Positions 239 through 48,232 of a DNA stretch of 48,496 nt are shown here, one piece after another (the stretch's first letter is position 1; each line of letters begins with the position of its first letter). The notes below the pieces were generated by a model that saw nothing but the letters and a program-made list of their open reading frames with translations, had not been told where the DNA came from and did no database searches. The translations under genes were made by a program, and so were the position numbers. Origin of the DNA: a bacterium (GTDB taxonomy: Bacteria; Elusimicrobiota; Elusimicrobia; UBA1565; UBA9628); contig JAKAQV010000001.1 in the NCBI GenBank assembly GCA_021819565.1, forward strand, positions 1 through 48,496, given 5' to 3'.

Positions 239-247
239 TGATACAAT
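239..247 (+). promoter_or_regulatory. Extended -10 element immediately before the 254 start codon
   Basis: TGATACAAT reads as an extended -10 (TG, one base, TACAAT). It ends six bases before the ATG at 254, so transcription would start on or next to the start codon. No Shine-Dalgarno sequence fits in the remaining six bases (gtaaaa). This is one of a recurrent set in the window. No convincing -35 is seen. Confidence 0.5.
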
Positions 248-253
248 GTAAAA

Positions 254-1312
254 ATGATTTTATCGCAAGCCCGACCTAGAACGGCGCTCTTTTTCTTTTT
301 TATTCCGATATTGTCTCAAGCCGCTTTTGCGGATGGGTTTAGTTATGACGAAAGCCCGCGCCATATCGCCCCCATTCCCATTCCCGGCGCGACCACCGGC
401 GTTGGATTTGACGACATGCAGTTTTCTCTCCCCCTTAAAGAGGTGTTGGTTCCGGGGGGACGCATGGGAGATCTCTTTTTTGTCAATCCCCAAAGCCATG
501 CTATTTCCGAGATTGGAGGATTTAGCGTCCATCTGGAATATTACGGCGGCCATAACGAGGGCGTAACCTCGGCCGACTCCAACAAGCGCTTTATCTTCGC
601 CACCGATAGAACCTCAATCAAGCTCAGCCTCATTGACGCTAAATCGCGAAAAATAATCGCCTCCGTCCCCTTGGCGGGGGAGCCGGATTATGTCCGCTAC
701 GTGTCTTTCAACGATGAAGTTTGGGTCACGGAGCCGCGGGATGAGCGTATCGAAATTTTTTCAATTGAGCCCCGCAAAGACCCTCCCCTTAAACACTTAA
801 AATTCATCCCCATCGAAAACGGCCCGGAATCTCTCGTGATTGACAATAGAAACCGCAAGGCTTTTACCAATTCCGTCTCCAGCGAAACTTTAGAAATCGA
901 TCTTAAATCGGAAAGCGTCATCGCCCGCTGGCCCAATCATTGCGTGAATTCTCACGGACTTGCTTTGGACCCTAAAAAACAATTTGTCTTTGTCGGCTGC
1001 GCCGAAGGAAAAGCCGAGACCTTGGACGCCGCTCACGGAGGAAAAATCCTCGGAGAAGTTCAATCGGGCAGAGGAGTCGATATCATCGCCTATAACCCTC
1101 TTCTCTCGCATCTTTATATGCCAGGTTCCAATAGCGGAACGATGGCGGTCATTCATGTGTTGGGCAATGGCGGACTCTATGTGGAACAAACCATGCCGAC
1201 AACCCATGGCGCCCATTGCGTGACGGTCGACGACCATGATGGAGTTTGGATTTGCGATCCCAGGCAGGGTCGGCTTTTGTTTTTCCAAGATTTACATACT
1301 CCGATTGAGTAA
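254..1312 (+). CDS. Secreted YncE-like beta-propeller protein
   Basis: This 352-residue protein starts with a clear signal peptide (a run of F and hydrophobic residues, cleavage near AFA-DG at about residue 26). The rest consists of repeated units of beta-propeller type, such as 'NRKAFTNSVSSETLEIDLKS', 'KKQFVFVGCAEGKAETLDA' and 'VTVDDHDGVWICDPRQGRLL', resembling YVTN/YncE seven-bladed propellers. It should therefore be periplasmic or exported, probably binding a ligand or a partner protein rather than acting as an enzyme. It lies between a TonB-dependent receptor and exbB-exbD-tonB, so a role in uptake of the receptor's substrate is a reasonable inference but is not shown. The start is the ATG directly after an extended -10 element. 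Confidence 0.7.
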   Translation: MILSQARPRTALFFFFIPILSQAAFADGFSYDESPRHIAPIPIPGATTGVGFDDMQFSLPLKEVLVPGGRMGDLFFVNPQSHAISEIGGFSVHLEYYGGHNEGVTSADSNKRFIFATDRTSIKLSLIDAKSRKIIASVPLAGEPDYVRYVSFNDEVWVTEPRDERIEIFSIEPRKDPPLKHLKFIPIENGPESLVIDNRNRKAFTNSVSSETLEIDLKSESVIARWPNHCVNSHGLALDPKKQFVFVGCAEGKAETLDAAHGGKILGEVQSGRGVDIIAYNPLLSHLYMPGSNSGTMAVIHVLGNGGLYVEQTMPTTHGAHCVTVDDHDGVWICDPRQGRLLFFQDLHTPIE

Positions 1313-1338
1313 GATTATGTCAAAACCAAGGAGAGAAT

Positions 1339-1959
1339 ATGGGGCATCTTGAATTTTTGCAGTCACTGGCCGCCTCCGGAGGAAATTGGGTTATTTATCT
1401 TCTGCTGGGGTTTTCCATTCTCTCCGCCGGAGTGATTTTGGAAAGAGTGATCGTCATCTTAAGGCAAGAGCGTTATCAAAAAGAAATCCTGCCGCAACTG
1501 GATCAGAAATTAGAGTCTCAACAGCCAAAAACAATTCTTGAGATTTTAAAGCCGGAATCGGTCCTGTATCCATTGATCGAGGATTTAGTCGAACATGCCT
1601 CTCGCGGACGAGAGATTCTCAATGAGCGCCTGGAAACCGGGCTGACCCTCCAAAAACGCAGGCTTGAAAAACGCGTTCTCATCTTGGGCACGCTGGGAAA
1701 TAACGCCCCTTTTATCGGCCTTTTGGGAACGGTTCTGGGAGTCATTCACGCCTTTCAAAGTCTCGCCGCCTCCGCCGGTCAAGGTCCGCAAGTCGTCATG
1801 GCGGGACTAGCCGAAGCCTTGGTCGCGACCGCGGTCGGCATCATGGTCGCCCTTCCCTGTGTCGCGTCTTACAACTACATCCAGAAAAAAATCAAGGATA
1901 TCTTGATAGACGCCGATCAATTCGGAAAACAATTCATTTTAAACGTCGCCGATAAATAA
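1339..1959 (+). CDS. exbB: ExbB/TolQ-family proton channel subunit
   Basis: This 206-residue MotA/TolQ/ExbB-family inner-membrane protein has three membrane segments, at about residues 17-38, 117-136 and 160-182. The family core is visible as 'LGTLGNNAPFIGLLGTVLGV' followed by 'GLAEALVATAVGIMVALP'. With ExbD it forms the proton-driven motor that powers TonB. A good Shine-Dalgarno (aaggagag) precedes the ATG. Its TAA stop overlaps the exbD ATG (TAATG), indicating translational coupling. ExbB is preferred over TolQ because exbD and a TonB protein follow, with no tolA/tolB nearby. Confidence 0.93.
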   Translation: MGHLEFLQSLAASGGNWVIYLLLGFSILSAGVILERVIVILRQERYQKEILPQLDQKLESQQPKTILEILKPESVLYPLIEDLVEHASRGREILNERLETGLTLQKRRLEKRVLILGTLGNNAPFIGLLGTVLGVIHAFQSLAASAGQGPQVVMAGLAEALVATAVGIMVALPCVASYNYIQKKIKDILIDADQFGKQFILNVADK

Positions 1960-2360
1960 TGGCTGGAATCAACGAAAACGAAGAGTCGATTACCGGAATC
2001 AACGTCACTCCGTTGGTCGACATCGTCCTGGTTTTATTGATTATTTTCATGGCCACCGCGCATTTAATCGCCCACCGTTCTTTAAACCTAAGCTTGCCCC
2101 GGGTCGCTCATTCACAAGAAACCCCAACCCCCAGCCAACACGTCACTCTTTCAGCCGATAAAACCCTTCGCTTAAATCAGGTCAAGGTCACTCCCGAAGA
2201 GCTCGCGCTCAATCTCGGGCAGATGGCTCATGCTGACCCCAACGTCAAGGTGACCTTGGGCGCGGATAAACAGGTTTCCTGGGGCGATGTCGCCCATTTG
2301 CTCGACTTGCTTAAAGGCGCCGGCGTTTCCAAGGTCGCCACCGAAGTCGAACCCAAGTAA
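1959..2360 (+). CDS. exbD: ExbD/TolR-family biopolymer transport protein
   Basis: This 133-residue single-pass membrane protein has a short cytoplasmic N-terminus, a membrane helix at about residues 19-40 and a periplasmic domain. The conserved membrane aspartate is present in 'TPLVDIVLVLLIIFMATA' (D21), the residue that takes part in proton translocation in ExbD/TolR. It overlaps exbB by one base at the start and is followed after one base by tonB, so the three form one operon. Confidence 0.92.
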   Translation: MAGINENEESITGINVTPLVDIVLVLLIIFMATAHLIAHRSLNLSLPRVAHSQETPTPSQHVTLSADKTLRLNQVKVTPEELALNLGQMAHADPNVKVTLGADKQVSWGDVAHLLDLLKGAGVSKVATEVEPK

Positions 2361-2361
2361 A

Positions 2362-3042
2362 ATGCCTTTTTTGCGCGAATTCAAATCCCATTTTTGGGAT
2401 GAGGATACCCTGCTTTGGAAAATGCTGGCTTTGTCGTTTTTGCTCCACGTGATTCTATTCAATTTGGGAAAAATTTCCTGGACGCCAGCGGGAAAACCAA
2501 CGATGGAAATTGACCTAACCTCAACAGTGTCCTTGGGACCTCTAAAAAAATCGGGGACGCCCCATGCCGCGGCTAAACCCGCCCCTAAAAAGGAATGGGT
2601 CAAACCCTCTCCACAACAGAAGTCTTTTCCGGCGCCAAAGCCGCAATCGACTCCGGCGGAAATTCCCAAGCCCACGCCAAACCCCTTAGCCTCAAACAAT
2701 GCAGGTTCCGGATCCGCCTCTTCCGGAACCGGTATTCAAGTCTCAAGATACCCCCAATTGGTTAATCTCAATCAGCTTCAGGCTCTCCTCAAAAAATTCT
2801 ATCCGGAAGAGGCTCGGCTAAAGCATATTGAATCCACCGTCGTCTTGGATATTCATTTAGACGCCTCCGGGCATGTCGTCAAGGTGGACCTCGTCAAATC
2901 CGGAGGCTCTGATTTTGACGCGGCCGCCATCAAAGCCGCCAAACTCCTTCGTTTTACCCCCGCCTATGTTGGAGACAAGCCCGTCGCGGTCAAAATCCGC
3001 CAAGCCATCTCCTTTAAAATCGGAGCCGACAATGGAGATTAA
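2362..3042 (+). CDS. tonB: TonB energy-transducing protein
   Basis: The protein is 226 residues from the ATG one base after the exbD stop. This start is chosen over an earlier in-frame codon inside exbD. An N-terminal membrane anchor (about 19-38) carries the S-x3-H arrangement (S25, H29) known from TonB. A proline/lysine-rich spacer follows (about 55-115). The last ~85 residues are a TonB C-terminal domain ('TVVLDIHLDASGHVVKVDLV', 'AAKLLRFTPAYVGDKPVAVK'). It spans the periplasm and transmits ExbB-ExbD force to TonB-dependent receptors such as the one whose end lies at 2-229. Confidence 0.93.
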   Translation: MPFLREFKSHFWDEDTLLWKMLALSFLLHVILFNLGKISWTPAGKPTMEIDLTSTVSLGPLKKSGTPHAAAKPAPKKEWVKPSPQQKSFPAPKPQSTPAEIPKPTPNPLASNNAGSGSASSGTGIQVSRYPQLVNLNQLQALLKKFYPEEARLKHIESTVVLDIHLDASGHVVKVDLVKSGGSDFDAAAIKAAKLLRFTPAYVGDKPVAVKIRQAISFKIGADNGD

Positions 3043-3071
3043 TTCTATCCAAGCGTTTCCAGCGAGGAAAA

Positions 3072-3080
3072 TGATACAAT
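3072..3080 (+). promoter_or_regulatory. Extended -10 element at the start of the envelope operon
   Basis: TGATACAAT, identical to the element at 239-247, overlaps the first possible ATG (3079) of the heptose kinase gene. If it is the promoter, that ATG would not be transcribed. The working start would then be the ATG at 3091, with a leader of about three bases. Confidence 0.45.
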
Positions 3081-4079
3081 GAAATCCGAAATGTTCCCCT
3101 CGACTGAGGAGAGACGTAAGCTCAAACAAATTCCCCGACGATTCAAGGATCGCCGTATTTTGGTCATCGGCGACGTGATGTTGGATCATTATATCCGCGG
3201 GAGCGTTAGCCGTTTATCTCCCGAAGCTCCGGTGCCTATTGTCCAAGTTAAAGAAGAATCTTTTGTTCCCGGGGGAGCCGGCAACGTCGCCTCCAATCTC
3301 GCCGCCCTTTTAGCCAAGGTCGAGGTAATTGGGGTAATAGGAGAAGACTCTTCCGGCGCTGAGCTTCAGTCGCATTTCGCGAGCTTAAAAATCGCAACCA
3401 CAAGCCTCATTAAAGATTCCGCGCGAGTCACCTCCCAAAAATGCCGGGTGGTCGCCGAAAGGCAACAGGTGGTTCGCTATGACCGGGAGTCTATTTCTCC
3501 GGTCGCGGGAAAAACCGAAGCCCTGATTTTGTCTCAAATTCAATCGGAAATAAAAAAATCCGAGGCCGTCATTTTGTCGGATTACGGCAAGGGAGTCTTG
3601 ACCCCGAAAATTCTCAAAACCGCTATCTCTCTTTCGCGCCGGGCCCAGATTCCCGTCATTGTTGATCCTAAAATCGAGCATTTCAAAAGATATCGCGCCG
3701 TCTCCTGCGTGACGCCCAATCTGCACGAAGCCTGGAACGGCATGCGGCGCGTCCCTAAACCCGGAGAAAAAGAACTGGAAAAACTAGGCCGCGATATTAT
3801 TAGAACCCTCAACTCCGATTCGGCTTTAATCACCAGGGGCCCCGAAGGAATGAGCCTTTTTCAAAAATCCAAGCCCACCGTTCATGTCCCGGCCCAAGCC
3901 CGGGAAGTTTTCGATGTCAGCGGAGCCGGAGACACCGTGATTGCGACCCTGACCCTGGCCTTGGCCAGCGGCGCGTCAATGACCGAGGCCGCTCTCCTTT
4001 CTAACTACGCGGCGGGCATCGTGGTGGGGAAATTGGGAACCGCGACCACGACGATAGAGGAGATCGAGAGCATCATCCC

Positions 4080-4083
<4 letters not shown>
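3079..4083 (+). CDS. rfaE1: D-glycero-beta-D-manno-heptose-7-phosphate kinase (RfaE domain I type)
   Basis: This 334-residue PfkB/ribokinase-family sugar kinase phosphorylates heptose 7-phosphate at C1 on the way to ADP-heptose for the LPS inner core. It shows the glycine-rich substrate motif 'GGAGNVASNLAALLAKVEVI' (about 65-85), 'SDYGKGVL', 'IVDPK', and the catalytic C-terminal signature 'DVSGAGDTVIATL' (about 278-290) with the base aspartate. The length fits the kinase-only half of HldE; the nucleotidyltransferase half is absent. The listed start is the first ATG, but it overlaps a probable -10 element, so the ATG at 3091 may be used. The stop overlaps the kdsB start (ATGA). Confidence 0.88.
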
Positions 4084-7291
<3,208 letters not shown>

Positions 7292-7295
<4 letters not shown>

Positions 7296-11363: not shown

Positions 11364-11378
11364 AGAGGACTTACCTTA

Positions 11379-11407
11379 AGTGTAGTCTATAAAAGACACA
11401 TTGTCAA
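11379..11407 (-). promoter_or_regulatory. Sigma-70-type promoter of the toxin-antitoxin pair
   Basis: On the minus strand, a perfect -35 TTGACA (11407-11402) and a -10 TACACT (11384-11379) are separated by exactly 17 bases. Transcription would start about 9 bases before the toxin ATG at 11363. This is the most complete -35/-10 promoter in the window and differs from the extended -10 style used by the core genes. Confidence 0.65.
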
Positions 11408-12870: not shown

Positions 12871-14256
12871 TTATCGTCCGGGTTTTTTGTGGTGGTATGA
12901 GTGTTTTGGGGTCTTATTGGGAACATGCGGCGGATGAAGTGGTTTTTCTTTTTCGCGCTCGTCAAAAACCTCGGGAGCAATCATCGTCAGAAAGCGGCCG
13001 ATGACCTCGCCCAAGCTCATCTTGCCGGCCGCGCGCTCCCAGTCCGGACCTAAAAGATCGACAGCGCGCTGAAAATTCTTCTGCCCCTCAAAGCGAGAGA
13101 GGATCTTTGATATTTTTTTGCCGGCGACTTCGCGGCGGCCGGGAATTTTTCCCTCTCGAAGGCGCGTTTTAGTCATGTGCTCAAGGCGATTGACCAAAGC
13201 GCGAGTGGCTGGCGCGACAAGGCTGATGGCGATGCCGGCTTTTCCGCTGCGGGCCGTGCGACCAATGCGGTGGACATAGAGCTCAAGTTCTCTTGGAATT
13301 GAGTAGTTGATCACGTGAGTCAGTTCTTTGACGTCTAAGCCTCTCGAAGCCACATCGGTGCAGACCAAGAGGCTTGTCTTTTTATCGCGAAAAGCGCGCA
13401 TCGTGCGCTCTCGATCGTCTTGGGATTTATCGCCATGCAAACAGTCAACCTTGTAGCCTTTGTCCAACAGATATTGGGTCAAATCCATCACGAGAGATTT
13501 TGTCTGGCAAAAAACCAAACCGTAAAAATTATCGGCCAGCTCGATGAGTTTGCAGAGAATTTCTGGTTTGTCTGACTCGCGGACGATGTAATAAATTTGT
13601 TCCACCGTGCTTGAGAGCATCTCGGTTCGATTGACCTGGGCCATCACGGGCTTTCTGAGATAGGTGTCGGCAACGCGGCGCACTTGGCCGCTCATTGTCG
13701 CCGAAAAAAGCCAGATATGGCTGGACTCTCGCGGGGTCGAGCGCAGTATTTTTTCCAAATCTTCTTTAAACCCCATGGAGATCATCTCGTCGGCTTCGTC
13801 TAAGACGACGACTTTCGCGTCTTTGAGATTGAGAGATTTTCTGTCAATGTGATCAATAATGCGACCGGGCGTGCCCACAATAATTTGCGCGCCGCGTTTA
13901 AGACCTTCAAATTGATCGGCGTATCCCGTGCCGCCGTAAATCGGTAGCGCTTTGATCCCTTTATATTTTCCAAGCAGATTGATTTGTCCGGAGACTTGAA
14001 GCGCCAGCTCCCGCGTCGGGCAAAGGATGACGCCTTGAACGCGCTTTGCGTGAGCGTCGATTTTTTCTAAAAGCGGAATGCCAAACGCCGCGGTCTTTCC
14101 CGTGCCCGTGGCGGCAAGGCCGATAAAATCCACGGACGGAACGGCCAGAAGCGCCGGCAGAGCCTGCTGCTGAATGGGGGTGGGCGTCGTAAATCCCAGT
14201 TCGTGGATGGCGCGCGAAAGGGGCTCGCTCAGTTTAAGGTCGTCGAATGTGTTCAA
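12871..14256 (-). CDS. DEAD-box ATP-dependent RNA helicase
   Basis: This 461-residue helicase begins at a TTG. Motifs in order are the Q-motif 'LGFTTPTPIQQQALP', motif I 'AATGTGKTAAFGIP', Ia 'PTRELALQ', Ib 'GTPGR', II 'VLDEADEM', III 'SAT', IV-V 'CTDVASRGLD', and VI 'HRIGRTARSGK'. It would unwind RNA in ribosome assembly or mRNA decay, as for CshA/DeaD/RhlE. The C-terminal tail after about residue 370 is basic and short and ends in a histidine/lysine stretch, so I do not choose a specific symbol. The TTG is six bases after a TGGTATAAT promoter element, with no room for a Shine-Dalgarno. Confidence 0.93.
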   Translation of the reverse strand: MNTFDDLKLSEPLSRAIHELGFTTPTPIQQQALPALLAVPSVDFIGLAATGTGKTAAFGIPLLEKIDAHAKRVQGVILCPTRELALQVSGQINLLGKYKGIKALPIYGGTGYADQFEGLKRGAQIIVGTPGRIIDHIDRKSLNLKDAKVVVLDEADEMISMGFKEDLEKILRSTPRESSHIWLFSATMSGQVRRVADTYLRKPVMAQVNRTEMLSSTVEQIYYIVRESDKPEILCKLIELADNFYGLVFCQTKSLVMDLTQYLLDKGYKVDCLHGDKSQDDRERTMRAFRDKKTSLLVCTDVASRGLDVKELTHVINYSIPRELELYVHRIGRTARSGKAGIAISLVAPATRALVNRLEHMTKTRLREGKIPGRREVAGKKISKILSRFEGQKNFQRAVDLLGPDWERAAGKMSLGEVIGRFLTMIAPEVFDEREKEKPLHPPHVPNKTPKHSYHHKKPGR

Positions 14257-14262: not shown

Positions 14263-14271
14263 ATTATACCA
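14263..14271 (-). promoter_or_regulatory. Extended -10 promoter (TGGTATAAT) of the DEAD-box helicase
   Basis: On the minus strand, TGG plus a perfect TATAAT hexamer (14268-14263) ends six bases before the TTG start at 14256. This predicts a leaderless mRNA that begins with UUG. It lies in the gap between uup (which ends at 14285) and the helicase, giving the helicase its own promoter. Confidence 0.6.
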
Positions 14272-14284: not shown

Positions 14285-16066
14285 TCAAGGGCGGAATTCG
14301 AGCTCTTCCCAGCGCCTGAACGCGGCGTCGACCGCTAGCTTCGCGGCGTCGAAGATTTCTTGGCGCTTAGAGAGCTCTTCGGCGTCGGTGGCGACGCTTG
14401 GGTCTTCCAGAGCCCTTTGAGCTTTGGCCGCTTGAGCTTCCGCCGCGTGGATTGCGGCTTCGATCTCTCTTAACTCTTTTGTTTTTTTCGCCGAGAGATC
14501 GGGTTTTTTATTTTCTTCTCGAAGAATCAACTCTCCTTTTTCTTCTGCCCTCCAGTCTTCCCACTGCGAAAGATCGGCGAAAAACCGGGAGTTTCCTTTC
14601 CCATCAAGCGCTAAAATTTCGCGGCTGACCCGATCAAGAAGATAGCGGTCGTGCGTCACGAGAACAAGCGCCCCCGGAAAATCAATCATGCTGGACTCAA
14701 GAACCTCCAGAGACTGTAGATCTAAATCATTGGTGGGCTCATCGAGAAGCAGCACGTCCGCGGTTTTGAGCATGAGACGCGCGATAAGAACGCGCGACTG
14801 CTCGCCGCCGGAAAGCCGGGAGAGCGAAAACTCAAGCTGCTCTTGTCGAAAAAGAAAACGGGAGGCCCAACCGTAAACGTGAATGCGGTTTCCTTTATAA
14901 AGAACATGTTCCCCATTTGGACAAAGGGCTTTTTTTAAACTCAAATTCAAATCCAGCTGCTCGCGGTGCTGATCAAAGGTCACAACCCTCAATTGATCGG
15001 CCCTCTTAAGAGTTCCTTCATCGGGAGTCATCTCTCCTGACAAAAGCTTAAGCAAAGTGCTTTTACCGCTGCCGTTTTCTCCCAGAAGCCCCAGCTTGTC
15101 TCCCGGCCCAAGAGTCAAATCCAGAGGCCCAAAGAGCTTTTTGCCACCCATGCTTTTCCCAATTTTTGAGGCCGTGATGAGCCGTTGGGTTTGCCTCTCG
15201 CTGCCGGAAAAATCAATATTGGCGGCCCGGCCCTGGGCATTGCGATATTTGAGTTCTGAAAGATCTCCCATGAGTTCTCCGGCGCGGTCGATGCGGGCCT
15301 GCTGCTTGGTCGTACGCGCCTTGGGGCCTCGGCGCAGCCACTCGATTTCGCCGCGCACGATATTGCGCACGGAATCCTCGCGCGCGGCCTGCGCGGCCAA
15401 GAGCGCCTCACGGTTTTCCAAAAATCGGCTGTAATTGCCTTGGCTGCTGAAATGCCCCTCGGCATAGCGCTTGTTGAGCTCGATAACGCGGTTTGTCACG
15501 CGCTCAAGAAAGCGGCGGTCATGGGTGACAACGAGAAACGAAAACCTGAGATCAGAGAGTATTTTTTCAAGCCAAAGAACGCCTTCAAGATCAAGATGAT
15601 TGGTGGGCTCGTCAATTAACAACAAATCCGGCTCGCGAAGGACTTTCGTGATAATCGCCAAGCGTTTGCGCCAGCCCCCAGAGAGTTTTGAGACCGACTC
15701 TTCAGGATTTCTAAAGCCCGCTTTCTCAAGCCCATCTTCTACGCGCATATCCACTTCATAATCTTCAAGACCTAAGTCTTGAAGAGCTAAAGCCAGGCTT
15801 TCACGCACGGAAATGTCTTTAGGCGCGTTTTCCAGACGATCATCCTGGGCCAAATAGTCGACCTTTAAGCCGCGGCGAACGGACAAGACGCCGCTATCGG
15901 AGCGCTCGATGCCGGCTAAAATTTTAAGGAGAGTAGATTTCCCCGCGCCGTTTGGGCCGATGAGCCCCGTCCGCTCGCCCTTGAAAAGCCCGAAGGTTAA
16001 ATTCTCGAAAAGAGGCCGCGCCCCGAAGCTTTTGGAAAGATTTTGGCAACTAAGAAATATATCCAC
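14285..16066 (-). CDS. uup: ABC-F family ATPase Uup
   Basis: This 593-residue cytoplasmic protein has two ABC ATPase domains in tandem and no membrane segments, so it is a ribosome-acting ABC-F factor and not a transporter. Walker A motifs are 'GLIGPNGAGKSTLLKIL' and 'GLLGENGSGKSTLLKLL'. The signatures are 'LSGGWRKRL' and 'LSGGEQSRV', and the Walker B motifs are 'LLLIDEPTNHLDLEG' and 'VLLLDEPTNDLDLQ'. The linker 'IEWLRRGPKARTTKQQARID' and the C-terminal coiled coil (about 525-590, E/A/K-rich) are marks of Uup. GTG at 16066 is chosen because it starts just before the first domain strand and follows an extended -10 by seven bases. An upstream TTG at 16129 would add 21 residues without family support. 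Confidence 0.9.
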   Translation of the reverse strand: MDIFLSCQNLSKSFGARPLFENLTFGLFKGERTGLIGPNGAGKSTLLKILAGIERSDSGVLSVRRGLKVDYLAQDDRLENAPKDISVRESLALALQDLGLEDYEVDMRVEDGLEKAGFRNPEESVSKLSGGWRKRLAIITKVLREPDLLLIDEPTNHLDLEGVLWLEKILSDLRFSFLVVTHDRRFLERVTNRVIELNKRYAEGHFSSQGNYSRFLENREALLAAQAAREDSVRNIVRGEIEWLRRGPKARTTKQQARIDRAGELMGDLSELKYRNAQGRAANIDFSGSERQTQRLITASKIGKSMGGKKLFGPLDLTLGPGDKLGLLGENGSGKSTLLKLLSGEMTPDEGTLKRADQLRVVTFDQHREQLDLNLSLKKALCPNGEHVLYKGNRIHVYGWASRFLFRQEQLEFSLSRLSGGEQSRVLIARLMLKTADVLLLDEPTNDLDLQSLEVLESSMIDFPGALVLVTHDRYLLDRVSREILALDGKGNSRFFADLSQWEDWRAEEKGELILREENKKPDLSAKKTKELREIEAAIHAAEAQAAKAQRALEDPSVATDAEELSKRQEIFDAAKLAVDAAFRRWEELEFRP

Positions 16067-16073: not shown

Positions 16074-16082
16074 ATTATCGCA
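16074..16082 (-). promoter_or_regulatory. Extended -10 promoter (TGCGATAAT) of uup
   Basis: On the minus strand, TG, one base and GATAAT (16079-16074) end seven bases before the GTG start at 16066. The intervening bases (tgctggc) hold no Shine-Dalgarno. The spacing predicts a leaderless GUG-initiated message. Confidence 0.5.
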
Positions 16083-19220: not shown

Positions 19221-19229
19221 GGGAAAATT

Positions 19230-20006
19230 TTAGCCCCGGCAATAGTCGACCGCGTTTTTTAAAATAGCCATGCCAAAGGCCTGTTTTTGAAAAGTCTGTC
19301 TGGTCCAATTGGGATGCTGGTAATTTTTCGTGTATCTTTCCGGGTGGGGCATCATTCCCAGGCAATTGCCCTCCGGATTAGTCAAAGCCGCGATATTAAA
19401 AACCGAACCGTTGGGGTTGGCCGGATAGGGCGCGATTTTTCCGTCATCTGAAACATATTGCATCGCAATTGAGCGATTGCGTTTTAAATCTTCAAGCTGT
19501 TTGGGGCTTCTCAAGACTAATTTCCCCTCCCCATGGGCCACCGGAAGTTCAATCATCTCCGGAAGCCCCCTAAAAAACAAAGAGGGATTCTGGGTGTTGA
19601 TGCGCAAATGCACCCAGCGATTTTCAAAACGCCCGGAATCATTGGTAATTAAGCTCGCGCTCTGCTCGCAAGAAGGCGAAAACGGCAATATTCCCGCCTT
19701 GACCAATACCTGAAACCCGTTACAGATTCCGATGACTGGGCGCCCCATCCGGATGAAATTTTTAAGATCGCCAATATGGAGTTTGACTTGCGCCGCCAGA
19801 ATTTTACCGGCCGAGATTTCATCCCCGTAAGAAAAGCCGCCTGGAAGAACGAAGATATCGTAATCCAAAAGACGGACGCGTTTTTCTTTAAACAAGTGAA
19901 GTCCGATAATTTCGGGCTTGGCCCCCAAATCAGAAAAAGCGTTGGAAGTTTCAACGGCGCAATTGGTTCCCGGCGCGGATAAAATCAAAACCTTGGACGC
20001 TTTCAC
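19230..20006 (-). CDS. purQ: FGAM synthase glutaminase subunit PurQ
   Basis: The GTG at 20006 overlaps the purL stop (GTGA) and gives 258 residues beginning with the first domain strand 'KVLILSAPGTNCAVET'. An in-frame ATG seven codons earlier would lie inside purL. It is a class I glutaminase with nucleophile cysteine in 'VIGICNGFQVLVKAG' and the His/Glu pair in 'GMMPHPERY'. It supplies ammonia to PurL for FGAR to FGAM conversion in the three-subunit PurS/PurL/PurQ enzyme. Confidence 0.95.
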   Translation of the reverse strand: MKASKVLILSAPGTNCAVETSNAFSDLGAKPEIIGLHLFKEKRVRLLDYDIFVLPGGFSYGDEISAGKILAAQVKLHIGDLKNFIRMGRPVIGICNGFQVLVKAGILPFSPSCEQSASLITNDSGRFENRWVHLRINTQNPSLFFRGLPEMIELPVAHGEGKLVLRSPKQLEDLKRNRSIAMQYVSDDGKIAPYPANPNGSVFNIAALTNPEGNCLGMMPHPERYTKNYQHPNWTRQTFQKQAFGMAILKNAVDYCRG

Positions 20007-22426
20007 GATAAAACCGTCCTCTGCCATGCCGCCTTAAACGGAGTCACCGACTCTTCAAACAGGACCAGTCCATCTAATCCGATAATTTTAATAATGGGAT
20101 TTGCGAGGCTAGTCCCAATTTTTTTAATGCAAGATCCCTTGACGCATTTAATAAAAGCCGCTTCATTCTCGGGTTTGACTTCCAACAAAATCCGGCTGGG
20201 AGTCTCGGAAAACAGCAAAACATCGGTTGAATAAATAGGCTTCTGCTTGGGAATGGCGTCCAAATCGAGCATCGCCCCAAATTCTCCCGAGAAAGCCATC
20301 TCGGTCAAGGCCGCCAAAAGCCCGCCCTCGGATAAATCATGGGCGGAGGCGACTAATCCTTTGGAAATCGCCTTGGAAACTGAGGCAAAATTTCTTTTGG
20401 CGCAGCGAGCGTCCACGCGCGGAACAGTTCCCCCGGAGATCCCGTTTAATTCGTTGTAAAGAGATCCGCCCATATCTTCCCCGGTTTGACCGACGATATA
20501 AAGCGAGTTTCCCGGGCCTTTCATATCCATCGTAATGGCCTTTTCGATATTGGGAATCGGGGCAATCGAGGAAATAAGAAGGGTTCCTGGAACAGAAACT
20601 GTTTTCCCAAAAGCGTCTTTTGACTCATTATAAAGACTGTCTTTTCCGGAAATAAAGGGAATCTGAAATCCTAAAGACGCATCGCGGCAACCCAAGGCCG
20701 CTCGCACCAGCGAACCCAAAACCTGGGGATTCTCGGGATTGCCCCAACAAAAATTATCCAAAAACGCGGCCCGTGAAATATCGGCCCCCACGCAAAGAAT
20801 GTTCCGAAGAGCTTCATCGGCGCAAAGCCAGGCCATTAAATAAGGATCCAATTTTCCCGAAGCCGGGTTGAGACCATGGCCGACGGTAAAACCGGACAAA
20901 TCCGAAGTGTCTCCGGTCGCCGCCTGCGGCCAGATCACGCAAGCGTCTCCAGGGCCGTCATGCCGCGCCCCCTGAAGCGGCTTAATCACGGTGCCGCCTT
21001 GAACTTCGTGATCATATTGCCGAATCAACCACTCGCGGCTGCAAACGTTTAAATGTGACAAAATGTCCTTGAGCTGTTCCGGCAAGGATTTAGCCGGGCG
21101 CGGAGTTCGGGATTCCGACAGCTTGACCGGGTTATAGACGGCCTTTTTTTCCTCTATAGGAAGCCCGTTGTTGAGAAATTTAAGCGAGAGATTAACCAAG
21201 TTTTGCCCGTTCCAGGAAACCTCAATGCGGCCGGTTTTGACGAATTCGCCGATCACGCGAATTTTGACTCCTTCATCGGCAAAAACTTTTTCAAAAGCCT
21301 TTAAATTCGAGGGAGAAACGGCAAAAACCATCCGCTCCTGAGATTCCGAAACCCAGATTTCCCAAGGCTCCATATCGGAAGCCTTGAGAATTTCTTTTTC
21401 AAGAAAAACGCGAGCTCCGATAATATCTGCCATTTCGGTGACAGCCGAGGAAAAGCCCCCCGCCCCGCAATCGGTGACCGAACGGTATAGTTTCTGGTCC
21501 CGGGCTTTTAAAAGCGCTTCCATGACGCGTTTTTCATTGAGCGGATGTCCAATTTGAACCGCAGTCGAGTGATCATCGCCGTTTAAATTGGCGGAGGAAA
21601 AGGTAGCGCCGTGAAGCCCGTCTTTGCCGGTCAACCCTCCGGCGGCCACAATTAAATCTCCCGGGCGGATTTCCTTTTTGACCGCTTGCGCCGGCAAAAC
21701 CCCGACGCAACCGACAAAAACAAGGGGGTTTAAGGCGTATCCATCGTCAAAATAAAGCCCACCAGCCGCCGTCGGAATTCCCATCCGGTTTCCGTAATCC
21801 CTGACTCCGGCGACAAGACCGCGTAAAATTCTCTCCGCGGAAAGAGCGGAAGGCGGCAAGGGCAATTTTTTATTCGGGGGAGCCACGCAAAAAATATCGG
21901 TCGATAAAACCGGTTTCGCGCCAAGCCCGGCGGCCAAAACATCTCGAATGACCCCGCCAAGACCCGTTTCCGCTCCGCCTTTTGGCTCAATGGCGCAAGG
22001 ATGATTATGGGTTTCGACTTTAAAAGCCAATGCCCATTTGCCTTTATTTCCGAAGCTGACGATTCCGGCGTTGTCTTTAAAAACAGACAGGCACCAAGGC
22101 TTTTTAGTCTGGCGGGTAGCCCGCGCGATGGTTTCCTCAAAAAGATTTTTGATTAAAACGGTTTTAGAGCCTTCCTGATAGCGAATGGGAGACTTAAAGG
22201 TTTTATGCCGGCAATGCTCCGACCAACTTTGGGCGATGGTCTCCATTTCCGCGCGAGTGGGATTTCTTTTAAGGGACTTAAAATGCGCCTGAATGGTTAA
22301 AATTTCTTTTTCATTTAAAGACCAAAGATTCTGAACGCTCAAATTCATCAATCCCTTGGGGGCCAAGGAATTAAAATCAGCCATCTCCTGGGAAGACTTA
22401 ACCGCGCTTTCTATTTTCTCTGTCAT
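20003..22426 (-). CDS. purL: FGAM synthase catalytic subunit PurL
   Basis: The protein has 807 residues from the ATG at 22426, chosen because it overlaps the purS stop (ATGA); an earlier in-frame start lies inside purS. It contains the AIRS/PurM-like tandem fold with 'TIAQSWSEHCRHKTFKSPIR', 'VETHNHPCAIEPKGGAETGL', 'GGLTGKDGLHGATFSSANLN' and 'ASAHDLSEGGLLAALTEMAF'. It has no C-terminal glutaminase domain, so it is the small-type PurL that needs separate PurQ and PurS. It is longer than the usual ~740 residues of this class. Confidence 0.95.
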   Translation of the reverse strand: MTEKIESAVKSSQEMADFNSLAPKGLMNLSVQNLWSLNEKEILTIQAHFKSLKRNPTRAEMETIAQSWSEHCRHKTFKSPIRYQEGSKTVLIKNLFEETIARATRQTKKPWCLSVFKDNAGIVSFGNKGKWALAFKVETHNHPCAIEPKGGAETGLGGVIRDVLAAGLGAKPVLSTDIFCVAPPNKKLPLPPSALSAERILRGLVAGVRDYGNRMGIPTAAGGLYFDDGYALNPLVFVGCVGVLPAQAVKKEIRPGDLIVAAGGLTGKDGLHGATFSSANLNGDDHSTAVQIGHPLNEKRVMEALLKARDQKLYRSVTDCGAGGFSSAVTEMADIIGARVFLEKEILKASDMEPWEIWVSESQERMVFAVSPSNLKAFEKVFADEGVKIRVIGEFVKTGRIEVSWNGQNLVNLSLKFLNNGLPIEEKKAVYNPVKLSESRTPRPAKSLPEQLKDILSHLNVCSREWLIRQYDHEVQGGTVIKPLQGARHDGPGDACVIWPQAATGDTSDLSGFTVGHGLNPASGKLDPYLMAWLCADEALRNILCVGADISRAAFLDNFCWGNPENPQVLGSLVRAALGCRDASLGFQIPFISGKDSLYNESKDAFGKTVSVPGTLLISSIAPIPNIEKAITMDMKGPGNSLYIVGQTGEDMGGSLYNELNGISGGTVPRVDARCAKRNFASVSKAISKGLVASAHDLSEGGLLAALTEMAFSGEFGAMLDLDAIPKQKPIYSTDVLLFSETPSRILLEVKPENEAAFIKCVKGSCIKKIGTSLANPIIKIIGLDGLVLFEESVTPFKAAWQRTVLS

Positions 22427-35857: not shown

Positions 35858-35866
35858 ATAATATCA
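35858..35866 (-). promoter_or_regulatory. Extended -10 promoter of infB
   Basis: On the minus strand TGATATTAT ends exactly six bases before the infB ATG (35851), with AATTAC between. An overlapping TATAAT three bases nearer also exists. No Shine-Dalgarno is present, so the message is predicted to be leaderless or nearly so. Confidence 0.55.
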
Positions 35867-37990: not shown

Positions 37991-37992
37991 AT

Positions 37993-38498: not shown

Positions 38499-38507
38499 AA
38501 GGCTCGT

Positions 38508-38513: not shown

Positions 38514-38527
38514 TGTATTATTGTATC

Positions 38528-39433: not shown

Positions 39434-39439
39434 CGTTTC

Positions 39440-39448
39440 ATTCTAACA
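39440..39448 (-). promoter_or_regulatory. Extended -10 promoter of the RmlD-like gene
   Basis: Minus-strand TGTTAGAAT ends six bases (gaaacg) before the ATG at 39433, predicting a leaderless mRNA. It is back-to-back with the plus-strand element at 39461-39469. Confidence 0.5.
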
Positions 39449-39460
39449 AATGATTAAATT

Positions 39461-39469
39461 TGATAGTAT
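39461..39469 (+). promoter_or_regulatory. Extended -10 promoter of the 39476 gene
   Basis: TGATAGTAT ends six bases (aaaatc) before the GTG at 39476. An overlapping TATAAA at 39467-39472 is even closer. Either way the start codon coincides with the expected transcription start. Confidence 0.5.
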
Positions 39470-39475
39470 AAAATC

Positions 39476-40309: not shown

Positions 40310-40315
40310 TCTTCA

Positions 40316-42168: not shown

Positions 42169-42169
42169 T

Positions 42170-43507: not shown

Positions 43508-44547
43508 AAGTTCTGGGAATTGAAACCTCTTGCGATGAAACCTCGGCCGCGGTGGTCGATCAAAAGCGGGGAATTTTGTCGAATGTCGTAATTTCTCAAA
43601 TCCCTCTTCATCGCCCTTTTCAAGGCGTCGTTCCCGAGTTAGCCTCAAGAGCCCATTTCAAAAAAATCGCGCCGGTCATAGAAGAAGCGTGCCTAAAGGC
43701 CGGAATTAAACGGCCGGACGCCGTCGCTTTTACCCAAGGTCCAGGCCTCATGGGATCTCTTCTGGTGGGAAGAGTCGCCGCCGAGACGCTCGGAAGGATT
43801 TGGGATTGTCCCGTCATCGGAATTAACCATCTGGAAGGGCATATTTTCGCCGCCGAACTAGAGGGGAAAATTCGTTTTCCGTTATTGGCTCTCATTGTTT
43901 CAGGAGGACATACCGATTTAGTTCTAGTTTTTAAGCCCGGCCAATACCGGGTTTTAGGCCGGACCCGCGATGATGCCGCCGGAGAATGCTACGACAAGGT
44001 GGCCAAGATATTGGGACTGGGCTATCCCGGCGGCCCCATCATCGACCGACTGGCCAAGACCGGAGACAAGAACTCTATTATTTTTCCGCGTCCCTATCTT
44101 GAGGGAACTTTCGATTTTTCTTTTTCGGGGCTTAAGACCGCTCTTCTCTATCACATCAACAAACGCCTTAAAAGGCCGATGAACGCCAAAATTAAAAGCT
44201 TGAAAAAGCCGATTTTAACGCCGGGAGAAATTTCAAACATTTGCGCCTCATTTCAAGAAGCCGTCTGCGAAACCCTCGTTCATAAGACTCTGGACGCCGC
44301 TCAAAAATTTAAAATCCGCCAAATCGTCGTTGGGGGCGGCGTTTCCGCCAATAGCCGCTTAAGAGAAATGTTTATCGAGAAATGCCAAAATCAACAAATT
44401 GCCGTCAGCCTTTCCTCTCTAAAACTCTGCACCGATAATGGCGCGATGATCGCCCAAGTCGCCATTCATAAACTCTCATCAAAAACTAAAAAACGCGCTT
44501 TAACCAATAAAAGCGATCCGGCTCTTCCTTTTAAGAATTGGGCTTAG
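43504..44547 (+). CDS. tsaD: tRNA N6-adenosine threonylcarbamoyltransferase TsaD
   Basis: The protein is 347 residues from the TTG at 43504, which overlaps the ctpA stop (TTGA); the family N-terminus 'KVLGIETSCDETSAAVVDQK' begins there. An earlier in-frame start would add 47 residues inside ctpA. Metal/ligand histidines are in 'RAHFKKIAPVIEEA' and 'GINHLEGHIFAAEL'. 'LIVSGGHTDLVLV' and 'VVGGGVSANSRLRE' complete the ASKHA fold. It attaches threonylcarbamoyl to A37 of ANN-decoding tRNAs. Confidence 0.96.
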   Translation: MKVLGIETSCDETSAAVVDQKRGILSNVVISQIPLHRPFQGVVPELASRAHFKKIAPVIEEACLKAGIKRPDAVAFTQGPGLMGSLLVGRVAAETLGRIWDCPVIGINHLEGHIFAAELEGKIRFPLLALIVSGGHTDLVLVFKPGQYRVLGRTRDDAAGECYDKVAKILGLGYPGGPIIDRLAKTGDKNSIIFPRPYLEGTFDFSFSGLKTALLYHINKRLKRPMNAKIKSLKKPILTPGEISNICASFQEAVCETLVHKTLDAAQKFKIRQIVVGGGVSANSRLREMFIEKCQNQQIAVSLSSLKLCTDNGAMIAQVAIHKLSSKTKKRALTNKSDPALPFKNWA

Positions 44548-44569
44548 GGCTCGCTACGAACGAAGGGCG

Positions 44570-45676
44570 TCAGAAATGGACTAATTTTTTGAGCCGGGGC
44601 ATAGGCTCCATTCCCAAGCCGGATTGGACTTTCGAGAGATCATAAAGACCTTTGCGTCCGATAGACGGCCCTTTCCAGAGTTTTTGAGAAAACCACAGCG
44701 GGGTGTCCAAATCCACAAAACTAAAATCTCCCCGGCCGCAGGCAAAATGGGCGGAGGTGGTCATCGCCAAGGCGGTCTCAATATTTCCGCCAATCATCAA
44801 AATCTTTCCTTTCTTTCGAGCCAAATCCGCGATTTTAATATTCTCGATGATTCCGCATTTCATGAGCTTGATATTGACGGCGGAAGGAAAAGGGCGGCGA
44901 AACAAATTCTGAACGGCTTTAAAGCTATAGGCGGATTCATCCGCGCAGACGGAAACCCCGCCGTATTTTTCGACGTCAAAAAGGCCGTCCAAATCTTCTC
45001 TTTTGACCGGCTGCTCGAAAAGAGCCGGCAAAATCCCGCGCTTTTTTAAGCGCATAAGAAAATCAAGGGCCTTTTTTGCGGAATAGCCCTGATTGGCATC
45101 GATAATGAGTCTCGCCTTCGGCGCCTCCACAAGAACCGCCAAGACCCGCTTTTCATCCTCATCTAAATCGCATCCCACCTTGATTTTAATTGTCTGAACC
45201 CCCAAGCGCGCGATTTTCCGCGCCGCCAGGCGAGATTTCTCCGGCGAAATCAAGGTCACCGTCACATCCGAAAAAACGCTTTTTTTCGCGTCGCCTAAAA
45301 AAGACCTTAAAGGGATTTTTTTAAACCGAGTCCAGGCATCCAAGATCGCCATCTGAATGGCCGCTCGCGCGGCCCCGCGCTCCGGCGGCATTCGCGAATC
45401 GAGTTTTTTTAAAAAAGCTCCGACATCGGCGATCTCTTTTCCCTCCAAGAATGAAATTTGTTCCGACAGCGCAAGGTAAGTCAAATCTTGACTGTCTCCG
45501 TTAAAGGTCGTAGAGGGAGCCCCTTCGCCGTATCCGACAGTTCCGTCTTTAAGACGCACGCGAACTAAGACGTTACTGGTCGCGCTTTGAGATCCCGAGG
45601 AAATGGGAAACGGCTCGTTTAAGGGTTCATTGAGTCGCGCGATTGAAACTTGAGAGAGGACGGGGAAATCTCTCAT
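44570..45676 (-). CDS. Dipeptide (L-Ala-D/L-Glu) epimerase of the enolase superfamily
   Basis: This 368-residue enzyme likely epimerises L-Ala-D-Glu from recycled peptidoglycan. The muconate-lactonising subgroup markers are all visible: the K-x-K lysine in 'GVQTIKIKVGCDLDED', metal ligands in 'IIDANQGY', 'FEQP' and 'CADES', and the second base in 'AVNIKLMKCG'. The C-terminal 'FVDLDTP' supplies the D-x-D typical of dipeptide epimerases. The ATG overlaps the stop of the SirB1-type gene before it (ATGA). Confidence 0.87.
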   Translation of the reverse strand: MRDFPVLSQVSIARLNEPLNEPFPISSGSQSATSNVLVRVRLKDGTVGYGEGAPSTTFNGDSQDLTYLALSEQISFLEGKEIADVGAFLKKLDSRMPPERGAARAAIQMAILDAWTRFKKIPLRSFLGDAKKSVFSDVTVTLISPEKSRLAARKIARLGVQTIKIKVGCDLDEDEKRVLAVLVEAPKARLIIDANQGYSAKKALDFLMRLKKRGILPALFEQPVKREDLDGLFDVEKYGGVSVCADESAYSFKAVQNLFRRPFPSAVNIKLMKCGIIENIKIADLARKKGKILMIGGNIETALAMTTSAHFACGRGDFSFVDLDTPLWFSQKLWKGPSIGRKGLYDLSKVQSGLGMEPMPRLKKLVHF

Positions 45677-46536
45677 TGGGGAATCAATAGAATCTGCGCC
45701 AATTCGCCCAATCTCTCGCTATTTAAATTAAGACCTGCGTTTTGGTAAACCGCCATTAAATTGCGCAAAAGCCGCATTAAAATATGCGAATGAGAGACCG
45801 GTCTTAAAACGCTGGGATCATAACTAAACCCATTTTGGGCCAAACGCTTGCGCATCCCAGCGACGTCGAGTGTTTTATTTAAAATCGGGTCCCAAAACAA
45901 AGACGGACGCCCGAGTCCGACGATAAAATGGCCTGGAAGCCCAATTCCGAAAGCCGGAATCTTAAGCCGACGCGCCAATATCAAAAAAAGAATGGACAAG
46001 CTGAGAGGCGTTCCCCGCCGCATTTCAATGACCCGATTTAAATAATTATTGTCCGGATCGTAATAGTTTTCCTCATTGACGCGAAAACCCATGGCATTGG
46101 AGAGAAACGAGTGGAGGCGCTTAAAGGCCGTCATCGAATTTTCAGACGAGGAGATATCGCTTCTAATTTTACCGGCGACATGGTCCAGCCATTTGCGATA
46201 GACCTTTTCATCAAGAAGCGGATAGGCAAAGCGCGCGATCAAAAAAGCCCCCTTTTCCAAATCTCTCTTGGCCTCGCTTAAACGCGCGAACTCCTCAAAT
46301 TCCTTTTTAATCTCTCCAAAGACAATGTCCGAGATAAGCCCTTTGGCCTTTTCAAAAAGCGCGGGATGCGTTCGCTCCAAACCCATTAAATAAGGGAGAA
46401 TCGGCGCTCCAATTTTAAGGATATGGTCTCGCACCAAGAGGGCGCTGTTGGGGTCCTCGTCTTCAAGAAGCAAGACTAGACTTCTCAAATTGCGCTCTTT
46501 TCCGGTTCTTCCCGCGCGCGCCTTTGTTTTCTCCAT
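45673..46536 (-). CDS. SirB1/transglutaminase-like (Transglut_core2) protein
   Basis: The protein is 287 residues from the ATG at 46536; a TTG 12 codons upstream is less likely because the -10 element at 46544-46549 would lie downstream of it. The core 'MGFRVNEENYYDPDNNYLNR', 'RRGTPLSLSILFLILARRLK' and 'AFGIGLPGHFIVGLG' is the SirB1 pattern, which contains the conserved G-x-PGHF histidine but no clear catalytic cysteine. The function of the family is unsettled. It is coupled to the epimerase that follows. Confidence 0.85.
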   Translation of the reverse strand: MEKTKARAGRTGKERNLRSLVLLLEDEDPNSALLVRDHILKIGAPILPYLMGLERTHPALFEKAKGLISDIVFGEIKKEFEEFARLSEAKRDLEKGAFLIARFAYPLLDEKVYRKWLDHVAGKIRSDISSSENSMTAFKRLHSFLSNAMGFRVNEENYYDPDNNYLNRVIEMRRGTPLSLSILFLILARRLKIPAFGIGLPGHFIVGLGRPSLFWDPILNKTLDVAGMRKRLAQNGFSYDPSVLRPVSHSHILMRLLRNLMAVYQNAGLNLNSERLGELAQILLIPQ

Positions 46537-46543
46537 ACTGGAT

Positions 46544-46549
46544 ATTGTA
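46544..46549 (-). promoter_or_regulatory. -10 element (TACAAT) of the SirB1-type gene
   Basis: Minus-strand TACAAT, within GGATACAAT, ends seven bases before the ATG at 46536. It belongs to the same short-spacing set but lacks the extended TG. Confidence 0.45.
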
Positions 46550-46568
46550 TCCCCTGCTACTGACTTTT

Positions 46569-48221
46569 TCAATATGCGATGTTTCCTACAATCTTTGCCG
46601 CCTCAATAGAGCCAGAAGCGGCAAGAAGGTTGGATAAAATCTTGCGCCCCTCCGGGTCATGAGTCAAATCATAAACGAAAATGGAGTTCCCCGCGGTAAA
46701 AGCGGGCGTTCGCTTTTTAAGCCAGGAAAATACATTCTTATCTGCGAAATAGACCGCCTCAAGATTTGTTTCTGAAATGGCAAAAAAAAGCGGCCCGGAT
46801 TTTTCCGGAAGGACGGTCCCGTCGCGACGATCGACATTGGAATAAAACGCCAGAGGAAAATAGCGAATTCCTTCATATGAGGGATCCGCCACTCCGAAAT
46901 AAGAAAGAATAATCGGAGGGTTTCCGCGCTTTTTGAGTTCGCGGCCCAAGTCTTTCAAGCCTTGCCCCCAATCCAAATTCGAATCGGCCAGAAGATGATA
47001 ACCGCCGCTAGGCCCGCCGGTCAACTCGTTAAAATAAACAAGATAATGAGGGTAGGCCCGGATCACGCTTAGGGACGTCCAAAGCGCCCCCACCGCGAGA
47101 GTGGCGGCAAACACCCCTTGGGAAAGACGAAGTTTTAAAGCGGCGACAGAACGCGCCCCCAAAATAATCAAAAAAGGATAAATGGGGAGAATATGGCGAT
47201 AGCCGATATCCGTTTTAGAAATCAGGGCCGCGATAAAATAAGCCGTCGGGGGCATCAAGAGCCAAATCTCCCGCTCGGACGGTTTTCTTAATGCCAGATA
47301 AATCCCCAGCGCGGCGAAAAGAAGGAGAGGAATCGGGGTTTTAACTGCAAGAGCGACCGGAAAAAAATCCCAGAAGCCATTTTGGCTATAGCGGCCCCAT
47401 AAAAAAGACGGGCGGCCTTGATTGAGCCTTGTCAGCGTTTTAAGAAGCCCGCCCCAATAGAGGGAAAAGCCGCTCAAGCGATAGGAAAACGCAAGAATGA
47501 GAGCCGCTAAAAAGACAAAAACGAGAATTTGAGAAATTTTTGGCCGACGCTTGGGAGAGACCCGCGCCTCGGTTAAAAGAGCGCTGACAATGACAATGGG
47601 AAGAATAATCATGCTAAATTTCGAAGCCAAAGCCCCGCCAAGGCAAACCCCGGACAAGGCCCAATCCCTCCAAATGCGATTAGGACGGGCAAGAAAAAAA
47701 CAGGTCAAAAAATAAAAGACGGCGGGCAGCGCATCAGTAGTGGCCAGGGCGAAATTGGAAAAAATCGGCGGACAAAAGGCGAGAAAAAAAGAGGCCGCAA
47801 GAAAAGCCGCCTCCCGGCCCAAACTCCAAGACCAGGCTAACGCCGCGGGAAACAAAATTAAAAGAAGGCTGATTAAATTCCAGGTTCGGGCGGAATTAAG
47901 CAAACGGGAAGCCTCAACCCGATTTTTATAGATAAATTGATCCGAAAAATTATAAAGCCTCCCAAAATCAGGATTTAAGGTCATGGTCGAAGGATTTAAG
48001 AGAAGAAGAGGCAAGGCCCCCCACATTTCCGCCAAGGGCGGATGATCGCGCCAGTTCAGCGGCGGCAGCTGGGTTTTAAGCGCGAGATATCCGCTCGCCA
48101 AATGGACCGGCTCGTCATATGTCGCCGAGGAATCTTCAATCTGGGAAATTCCAAAAAATACCGCCGTAAAAAACGCGGATACGGCCGCCAACCCCAGCCC
48201 TACGATTTTAGCCTTCGACAC
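46569..48221 (-). CDS. Membrane glycosyltransferase, GT39/ArnT-like (PMT_2)
   Basis: This 550-residue protein has about ten membrane helices. After the first helix comes the periplasmic-loop acidic motif in 'SSATYDEPVHLASGYLALKT', as in polyprenyl-phosphate-dependent C-type glycosyltransferases. 'DIGYRHILPIYPFLIILGAR' and a C-terminal soluble part with 'LLADSNLDWGQGLKDLGREL' fit a family of uncharacterised GT39-like proteins. It would move a sugar from a lipid carrier to a periplasmic acceptor. The GTG start lies five bases after TAGAAT. Confidence 0.85.
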   Translation of the reverse strand: MSKAKIVGLGLAAVSAFFTAVFFGISQIEDSSATYDEPVHLASGYLALKTQLPPLNWRDHPPLAEMWGALPLLLLNPSTMTLNPDFGRLYNFSDQFIYKNRVEASRLLNSARTWNLISLLLILFPAALAWSWSLGREAAFLAASFFLAFCPPIFSNFALATTDALPAVFYFLTCFFLARPNRIWRDWALSGVCLGGALASKFSMIILPIVIVSALLTEARVSPKRRPKISQILVFVFLAALILAFSYRLSGFSLYWGGLLKTLTRLNQGRPSFLWGRYSQNGFWDFFPVALAVKTPIPLLLFAALGIYLALRKPSEREIWLLMPPTAYFIAALISKTDIGYRHILPIYPFLIILGARSVAALKLRLSQGVFAATLAVGALWTSLSVIRAYPHYLVYFNELTGGPSGGYHLLADSNLDWGQGLKDLGRELKKRGNPPIILSYFGVADPSYEGIRYFPLAFYSNVDRRDGTVLPEKSGPLFFAISETNLEAVYFADKNVFSWLKKRTPAFTAGNSIFVYDLTHDPEGRKILSNLLAASGSIEAAKIVGNIAY

Positions 48222-48226
48222 GGCTT

Positions 48227-48232
48227 ATTCTA
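48227..48232 (-). promoter_or_regulatory. -10 element (TAGAAT) of the glycosyltransferase gene
   Basis: Minus-strand TAGAAT ends five bases (aagcc) before the GTG at 48221. An overlapping TATAGA gives a gap of eight. No Shine-Dalgarno fits, so initiation is predicted to be leaderless or nearly so. Confidence 0.4.

Follow-up and report, generated by a model that had tools for sequence, protein, structure and literature searches.

Genes led by a TA signal and predicted to be leaderless have been described in Actinobacteria, Deinococcus-Thermus and other groups (Zheng 2011, PMC3160421), where a Pribnow-like box lies about 10 bases before the start and such genes exist alongside Shine-Dalgarno genes; for Lactococcus, that paper reports a strong TG ahead of the box. 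Its group list does not name Elusimicrobiota, and the 8 of 20 'Other Bacteria' that it gives as having leaderless genes may include a member of this phylum. In Deinococcus-Thermus, a -10 motif adjacent to open reading frames (ORFs), TANNNT about 6-7 bases before the ORF, can act as a promoter on its own and interacts with RpoD (Zhong 2025, PMC12340547). Bidirectional promoters with a symmetric -10 are also described, 18 bp being the commonest distance between their starts and 10 and 23 also common (PMC12825309, PMC10268837). Here we analyze a stretch of 48,496 nucleotides (the window), contig C148 of a 1.80 Mb draft genome (G000; 195 contigs, 80.9% complete), in which nine -10-like hexamers, several of them extended by TGn, lie 5, 6 or 7 bases before start codons. 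We consider it very probable that these belong to a class of extended -10 promoters abutting the coding region and yielding leaderless or nearly leaderless mRNAs. They resemble the TA-led genes in the box and in the coexistence with Shine-Dalgarno genes, the Lactococcus signal in the TGn, and the Deinococcus-Thermus motif in sequence and spacing. They differ from the last in that nearly one third of D. radiodurans genes carry the box compared with about 7% here, that the TGn extension is prominent here, and that the Deinococcus-type box is backed by experiments.

In a tree built from the conserved part of initiation factor IF2 (80 rows: the window, loci L002-L059 and L083-L103, with L060-L081 and L104-L111 left out), the 22 rows of the window's order together with three named Elusimicrobiaceae split from 55 rows of other phyla with support 100/100, which places the window in Elusimicrobiota. 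Genes were called by codon usage, and their starts were picked by codon score and a start-codon prior, ignoring any upstream signal. The sample of the source genome, made up of the window and 40 further contigs or parts of contigs, totalled 396 kb (22% of the draft) and contained 275 genes preceded by 60 nt or more of sequence; that of a same-genus genome, G001, comprised 24 stretches (475 kb, 354 genes). Pooled, these gave 629 genes. A class pool of 1,120 genes was used for peak and start-codon counts.

Measuring the distance of TGnTAnnnT and TANNNT to the start codon in these samples revealed a sharp peak and not a flat profile, as the earlier note had anticipated for leaderless promoters. 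In G000, TANNNT was found at spacing 6 in 25 of 275 genes compared with 5.4 per background position (Poisson 8.8e-10) and TGnTANNNT in 10 compared with 0.41, while the corresponding values in G001 were 27 of 354 against 6.9 (5.9e-9) and 8 against 0.74. The genus pool had 52 TANNNT at spacing 6, compared with a background of about 12 per position, with 9 at spacing 5 and a shoulder of 18 at spacing 7; TGnTANNNT occurred 18 times at 6, five times at 7, nine times at 18 and four times at 20, with a mean of 0.6 elsewhere (spacings 0 to 45, without 5-8 and 17-20). The class pool gave 95 TANNNT against about 23 and 38 TGnTANNNT against about 2 at spacing 6. Choosing the leftmost start reproduced the peak, and the 198 pool genes with a single candidate start had 15 boxes at spacing 6 against about 4. 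A count of distances from the hexamer to ATG that made no use of gene calls was underpowered for TANNNT; TGnTAnnAT ahead of ATG and GTG was already prominent at spacing 6 in such a count. Judged by the excess over background at the two spacings 6 and 7, the box is carried in the genus sample by about 45 genes out of 629 (7%), and by 22 of the 119 divergent genes (19%).

The setting of the box is that of a promoter, as supported by the excess at divergent genes, the TGn, the spacing kept in relatives and the lack of a peak in other phyla. Genes inside operons had been said to be free of the element. Among the 288 packed genes, defined by a co-directional upstream neighbour ending within 25 bases, the excess at spacings 6-7 was 4.6, compared with 22.1 among the 119 divergent genes, each of which needs a promoter of its own. 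TGn preceded the box in 18 of 52 genes at spacing 6 and in 31 of 334 at other spacings. The claim that -35 boxes are mostly missing holds in bulk, since at most two mismatches to TTGACA were seen in 11/52 box genes and 98/540 others, while near-perfect -35 elements (0-1 mismatch) occurred in 4/52 and 11/540, respectively (p 0.035). This lack of bulk -35 enrichment is compatible, as far as it goes, with a Deinococcus-type, RpoD-bound box driving expression without a -35.

Start regions of 18 window genes were compared with those of same-genus orthologs; the stretches retrieved from relatives contained no ortholog of 254, 11363 or 11714, the matches of 16066 and 16129 in G001 were excluded as a 28% paralog, and that of 27847 in G003 was an unusable fragment. 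Seven of the nine window elements (14256, 16066, 35851, 39433, 39476, 46536 and 48221) keep box and spacing in 2-4 relatives. Upstream of 14256, G002 and G004 have TGATACAAT with no change in spacing although the flanks have diverged, and they retain the TTG start; at 16066 box, TG and spacing are identical in the same two genomes. The 39433 element is retained at spacing 6 in G001, G002 and G003 and at spacing 7 in G004. Before 39476, G001 (start extrapolated from residue 16), G002 and G004 carry TGATACCAT or TGATAGGAT, the spacing being unchanged. TACAAT stands at spacing 7 before 46536 in G001, G002 and G004, where the flanks are coding and also similar, and the 48221 element keeps its spacing in G001, as TAAAAT before an ATG start (extrapolated from residue 27), and in G002 and G004, where the flanks are retained as well. 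Similar flanks make conservation less telling for 46536, and for 48221 in the last two genomes. In the far relatives G001 and G003, the box was retained to within one base of its spacing in 7/10 pairs for spacing 6 and in 2/2 for spacing 7, compared with 11/27 for TANNNT further upstream.

The peak extends to other members of the class. Four other genera of the same family (f1) had the box at spacing 6 in 15 of 192 genes, with backgrounds of 0.1 to 0.6 per genome, and family f4 of the same class together with the three named Elusimicrobiaceae loci had 28 of 297, with summed backgrounds of about 10. No significant peak was seen in G018, f10 (G050, G060), f11, f16, f17, f18, f21, f5 and G096+G088+G059, samples of 12-61 genes each that are too small to speak for absence. 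A strict-pattern search of 99 genomes of the phylum pointed to family f4; it gave zero matches in G000 and hence says nothing about that genome. As controls, 72 of 80 loci were pooled, the three Elusimicrobiaceae being handled apart and L005, L008, L025, L042 and L067 left out. There was no peak in the Bacteroidota pool (25 loci; 6/263 at spacing 6, background 10.9), the Firmicutes pool (27 loci; 5/367, background 9.4) or the pool of Proteobacteria/Nitrospirota/Desulfobacterota-like loci (20 loci; 4/243, background 3.6), nor when only divergent or widely spaced genes were taken (3/124, 4/168 and 3/119, respectively). In the family f4 samples (L205-L220, L002-L004), T occupies position -1 at about 60% of ATG starts, with or without a Shine-Dalgarno.

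Together, the sharp peak in two genomes, the promoter-like setting, the conservation and the lack of a peak in the other-phylum pools support the leaderless-promoter interpretation put forward in the earlier note. The elements would be -10 boxes, often extended (TGnTAnnnT) and mostly without a -35, of promoters presumably read by the housekeeping sigma factor; RNA polymerase would start 6-7 bases past the box, at or a few bases from the start codon, and the resulting mRNA would be read from its 5'-terminal AUG or GUG without Shine-Dalgarno pairing, in cells that use Shine-Dalgarno starts for other genes. That the mRNA begins at the start codon itself we infer from the position of the box. RNA polymerase favours a purine as the first transcribed base, and a depletion of TTG is expected if transcripts begin with the first base of the codon. 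Starts with GTG or TTG had been called unusual for such genes, which fits TTG, found in 2 of 95 genes with a box at spacing 6 compared with 113 of 962 others in the class pool (p 0.001; ATG and GTG not depleted), and does not fit GTG, which is no rarer than usual (7/52 compared with 34/540).

Several observations weigh against this reading or reduce what can be drawn from the counts. About one in four or five of the genes with TANNNT at spacing 6 is background, and the pooled p-values are too small, as G000 and G001 share orthologs (69 pairs), although each genome alone is significant. The TTG depletion may partly stem from miscalled TTG starts in other genes, and the TTG start with a box at 14256 is conserved. 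A pyrimidine at -1, like the TTG depletion an indirect sign of transcription from the codon, was found in 39/52 genes with a box at spacing 6 and in 275/540 others (p 6e-4), a difference that is less clear against neighbouring spacings (19/30 at 8-10). Raw box counts at 6-7 differed strongly between divergent (30/119) and packed genes (12/288; p 2.5e-9), but the contrast is also present at control spacings (10/119 and 5/288 at 12-13; 13/119 and 7/288 at 15-16) since such hexamers are more frequent in intergenic DNA, and the two groups can therefore be compared only by the excess of each over its own background. Similarly, a Shine-Dalgarno was found in 3/52 genes with the box at spacing 6 compared with 234/540 others, yet this depletion is mechanical, since TANNNT at neighbouring spacings excludes the Shine-Dalgarno equally (3/26 and 2/30); its absence thus carries no independent weight as evidence. 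The retention samples in far relatives are small, the control pools all come from infB surroundings, and the Proteobacteria-like pool has 2/243 TGnTANNNT at spacing 6 against 0.26, so that rare cases are possible there.

Among other explanations, the one that deserves most attention, although we think it unlikely, is that these are real promoters with very short leaders (1-8 nt) or that the true start codons lie slightly elsewhere, giving near-leaderless mRNAs. The spacings of 5 and 7 (46536, 48221, 16066), the conserved TTG at 14256 and the shoulder of the peak at 7 fit such leaders, whereas the mode at exactly 6, the steep drop at 5 (9 compared with 52) and the TTG depletion speak for transcription from the codon itself. 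The box also precedes a coaD-like gene (CTP_transf_like; L175) and cysS (L183), which tells against this alternative; the protein starts of coaD and cysS are generally well known.

It is far less probable that the A/T-rich hexamer is a translational signal, acting through binding of S1 or a low degree of structure around the start. It does sit in the region of ribosome signals, and upstream AT-rich biases in other phyla are discussed in such terms (PMC5397173). Such a signal, however, should also serve operon genes, where the excess is small, and the TGn ahead of the box, the occurrence of the same box at spacing 18 followed by a Shine-Dalgarno, and the infB relatives that retain the box further upstream fit a promoter. 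Chance matches chosen by eye are plausible for 19220 and for two unlisted matches in the window, 6444 and 42182; as a general explanation chance is ruled out by the positional peak, significant in two genomes separately, and we give it almost no credence.

Shine-Dalgarno starts coexist with box-at-6 starts in the same genomes, as judged from their sequences. The 3' end of the 16S rRNA of G002, the one of five same-genus genomes with a 16S match, is GGATCACCTCCTTT with an intact anti-Shine-Dalgarno, and a Shine-Dalgarno-like 4-mer was found in 36% and 40% of genes in the G000 and G001 samples, respectively. The second TGnTANNNT peak, 18 bases upstream of the start, has a Shine-Dalgarno in 6 of 9 genes, compared with 0 of 18 for the peak at 6; it was found post hoc in the genus only (examples L180:1209 (+), L114:15760 (-) and L155:3682 (+)). 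The cysS gene has the box at 6 in G000, whereas its G001 counterpart has a Shine-Dalgarno; by these upstream sequences it is an example of a switch between leaderless and Shine-Dalgarno modes.

The extended -10 of infB is identical in 5/5 same-genus genomes despite diverged flanks. In G006, of a second genus, the box lies 7 bases before a GTG start, and in G007, G008, G011 and G014 a similar extended -10 was counted by eye at about 22, 30, 18, and 8 or 11 bases upstream, respectively; in the other relatives compared, there was no such box or the sequence ended before the region. Because relatives outside the genus keep the extended -10 further upstream, an own infB promoter seems older than its leaderless position.

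The nine hexamers, the TGn where it had been claimed and the spacings were read back from the sequence as the earlier note gave them (Table 1). At 16066, TG and the spacing of 7 stand; the hexamer itself, GATAAT, has an atypical first base and is not a TANNNT. The hexamer before 19220 contains the stop codon (TAA, 19230-19232) of the upstream ORF 19230-20027, and G001 has a GAGGAGG Shine-Dalgarno at this place while G002 and G004 have the hexamer; for these reasons this element is doubtful, the only one of the nine, chance or translational coupling being at least as likely as a promoter. The gene caller started the 39476 gene 48 bases downstream (39524), whereas GTG 39476 and its -10 are conserved in relatives; because of this shift, TGnTANNNT starts number 4 among the 40 called window genes and not 5 as on the earlier list. 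The unlisted matches at 6444 (TATCTT, spacing 6; absent in G001) and 42182 (spacing 7) both lie close behind a co-directional gene and look like chance. On the minus strand at 11364-11407, TTGACA, 17 bases, TACACT and then 15 bases lead to ATG 11363, an arrangement that resembles a conventional promoter with a short leader, unlike the leaderless ones. Upstream of an LpxB-family gene, 45 bases containing AATTGTAACAATT are identical between L141 (G000) and L156 (G001); this conserved stretch may hold an operator beside the leaderless -10.

Table 1. Candidate -10 elements of the window and, below them, the palindrome ATGATATCAT at divergent gene pairs of relatives
Element	Position or genome	Strand	Start codon	Gene or genes
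extended -10 TGATACAAT	239..247	+	ATG 254, 6 bases	352-aa ORF; no Pfam family at E 0.001
extended -10 TGGTATAAT	14263..14271	-	TTG 14256, 6 bases	DEAD-box helicase
TGCGATAAT	16074..16082	-	GTG 16066, 7 bases	ATPase with two ABC domains, ABC-F-like
TAAAAT, doubtful	19227..19232	-	ATG 19220, 6 bases	class II amidotransferase, purF-like
extended -10 TGATATTAT	35858..35866	-	ATG 35851, 6 bases	infB (initiation factor IF2)
extended -10 TGTTAGAAT	39440..39448	-	ATG 39433, 6 bases	RmlD-type protein; one half of divergent pair
extended -10 TGATAGTAT	39461..39469	+	GTG 39476, 6 bases	no Pfam match; opposing element 12 bp away
TACAAT, TG absent	46544..46549	-	ATG 46536, 7 bases	Transglut_core2 protein
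TAGAAT, TG absent	48227..48232	-	GTG 48221, 5 bases	PMT_2 protein
ATGATATCAT pair	G061			coaD-like (CTP_transf_like) gene and HD-domain gene
ATGATATCAT pair	G161			serine dehydratase and MntP
ATGATATCAT pair	G026			CxxCxxCC-like ORF (below cut-off) and class I tRNA synthetase gene
ATGATATCAT pair	G160			pterin dehydratase and ORF without Pfam match
ATGATATCAT pair	G017			prephenate dehydrogenase-like and ORF without Pfam match

The start codons of the divergent genes 39433 and 39476 are 42 bases apart, and the two genes have separate boxes, not one shared -10. In relatives, the palindrome ATGATATCAT can lie between divergent start codons 22-24 bases apart (L213:10661-10670, L251:4010, L254:4011, L255:4012, L256:4011). 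As candidate promoters, these pairs would be like the bidirectional promoters of PMC12825309 and PMC10268837 in having divergent starts around one symmetric -10, and unlike them in that both start codons are 5-8 bases from the palindrome, so that both mRNAs would be leaderless, a word absent from the main text of those two papers. The pairs in Table 1 are 5 of 11 two-sided palindromes found among about 100 matches across 196 genomes, and 5 of the 11 have ORFs of at least 80 aa on both sides; by a rough estimate the number of two-sided cases alone is not above chance. Four of the 11 are in G013 (C21, C78, C108), three with similar flanks, and these copies resemble a dispersed palindromic repeat more than promoters. 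A shared palindromic -10 giving two leaderless mRNAs is a lead suggested by these arrangements.

The literature searched contained no report of leaderless genes in Elusimicrobiota; Elusimicrobia are named in PMC10783764 with regard to anti-Shine-Dalgarno types, and IF2 is described there as favouring leaderless mRNAs. The kind of gene start described here is thus already known, though that literature holds no report of it for this phylum, and the new details would be the second promoter position at 18 with a Shine-Dalgarno and infB itself on a leaderless promoter. As a tentative proposal, for which the likelihood is modest, the extended -10 may be fixed either at 6, leaving no leader, or at 18, leaving about 11-12 nt, near the shortest Shine-Dalgarno leader; leaderless infB would let IF2 promote its own production and move the cell from one of these gene classes towards the other, and some divergent neighbours would share a palindromic -10, with two leaderless mRNAs arising from 22-24 bp. 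The leaderless gene class with extended -10 promoters would be extended to Elusimicrobiota, a largely uncultured phylum, in which the box could serve gene finders as a start signal. One genus with two sharply spaced promoter classes would be a natural study system, and it offers a testable idea for why the IF2 gene may be leaderless.

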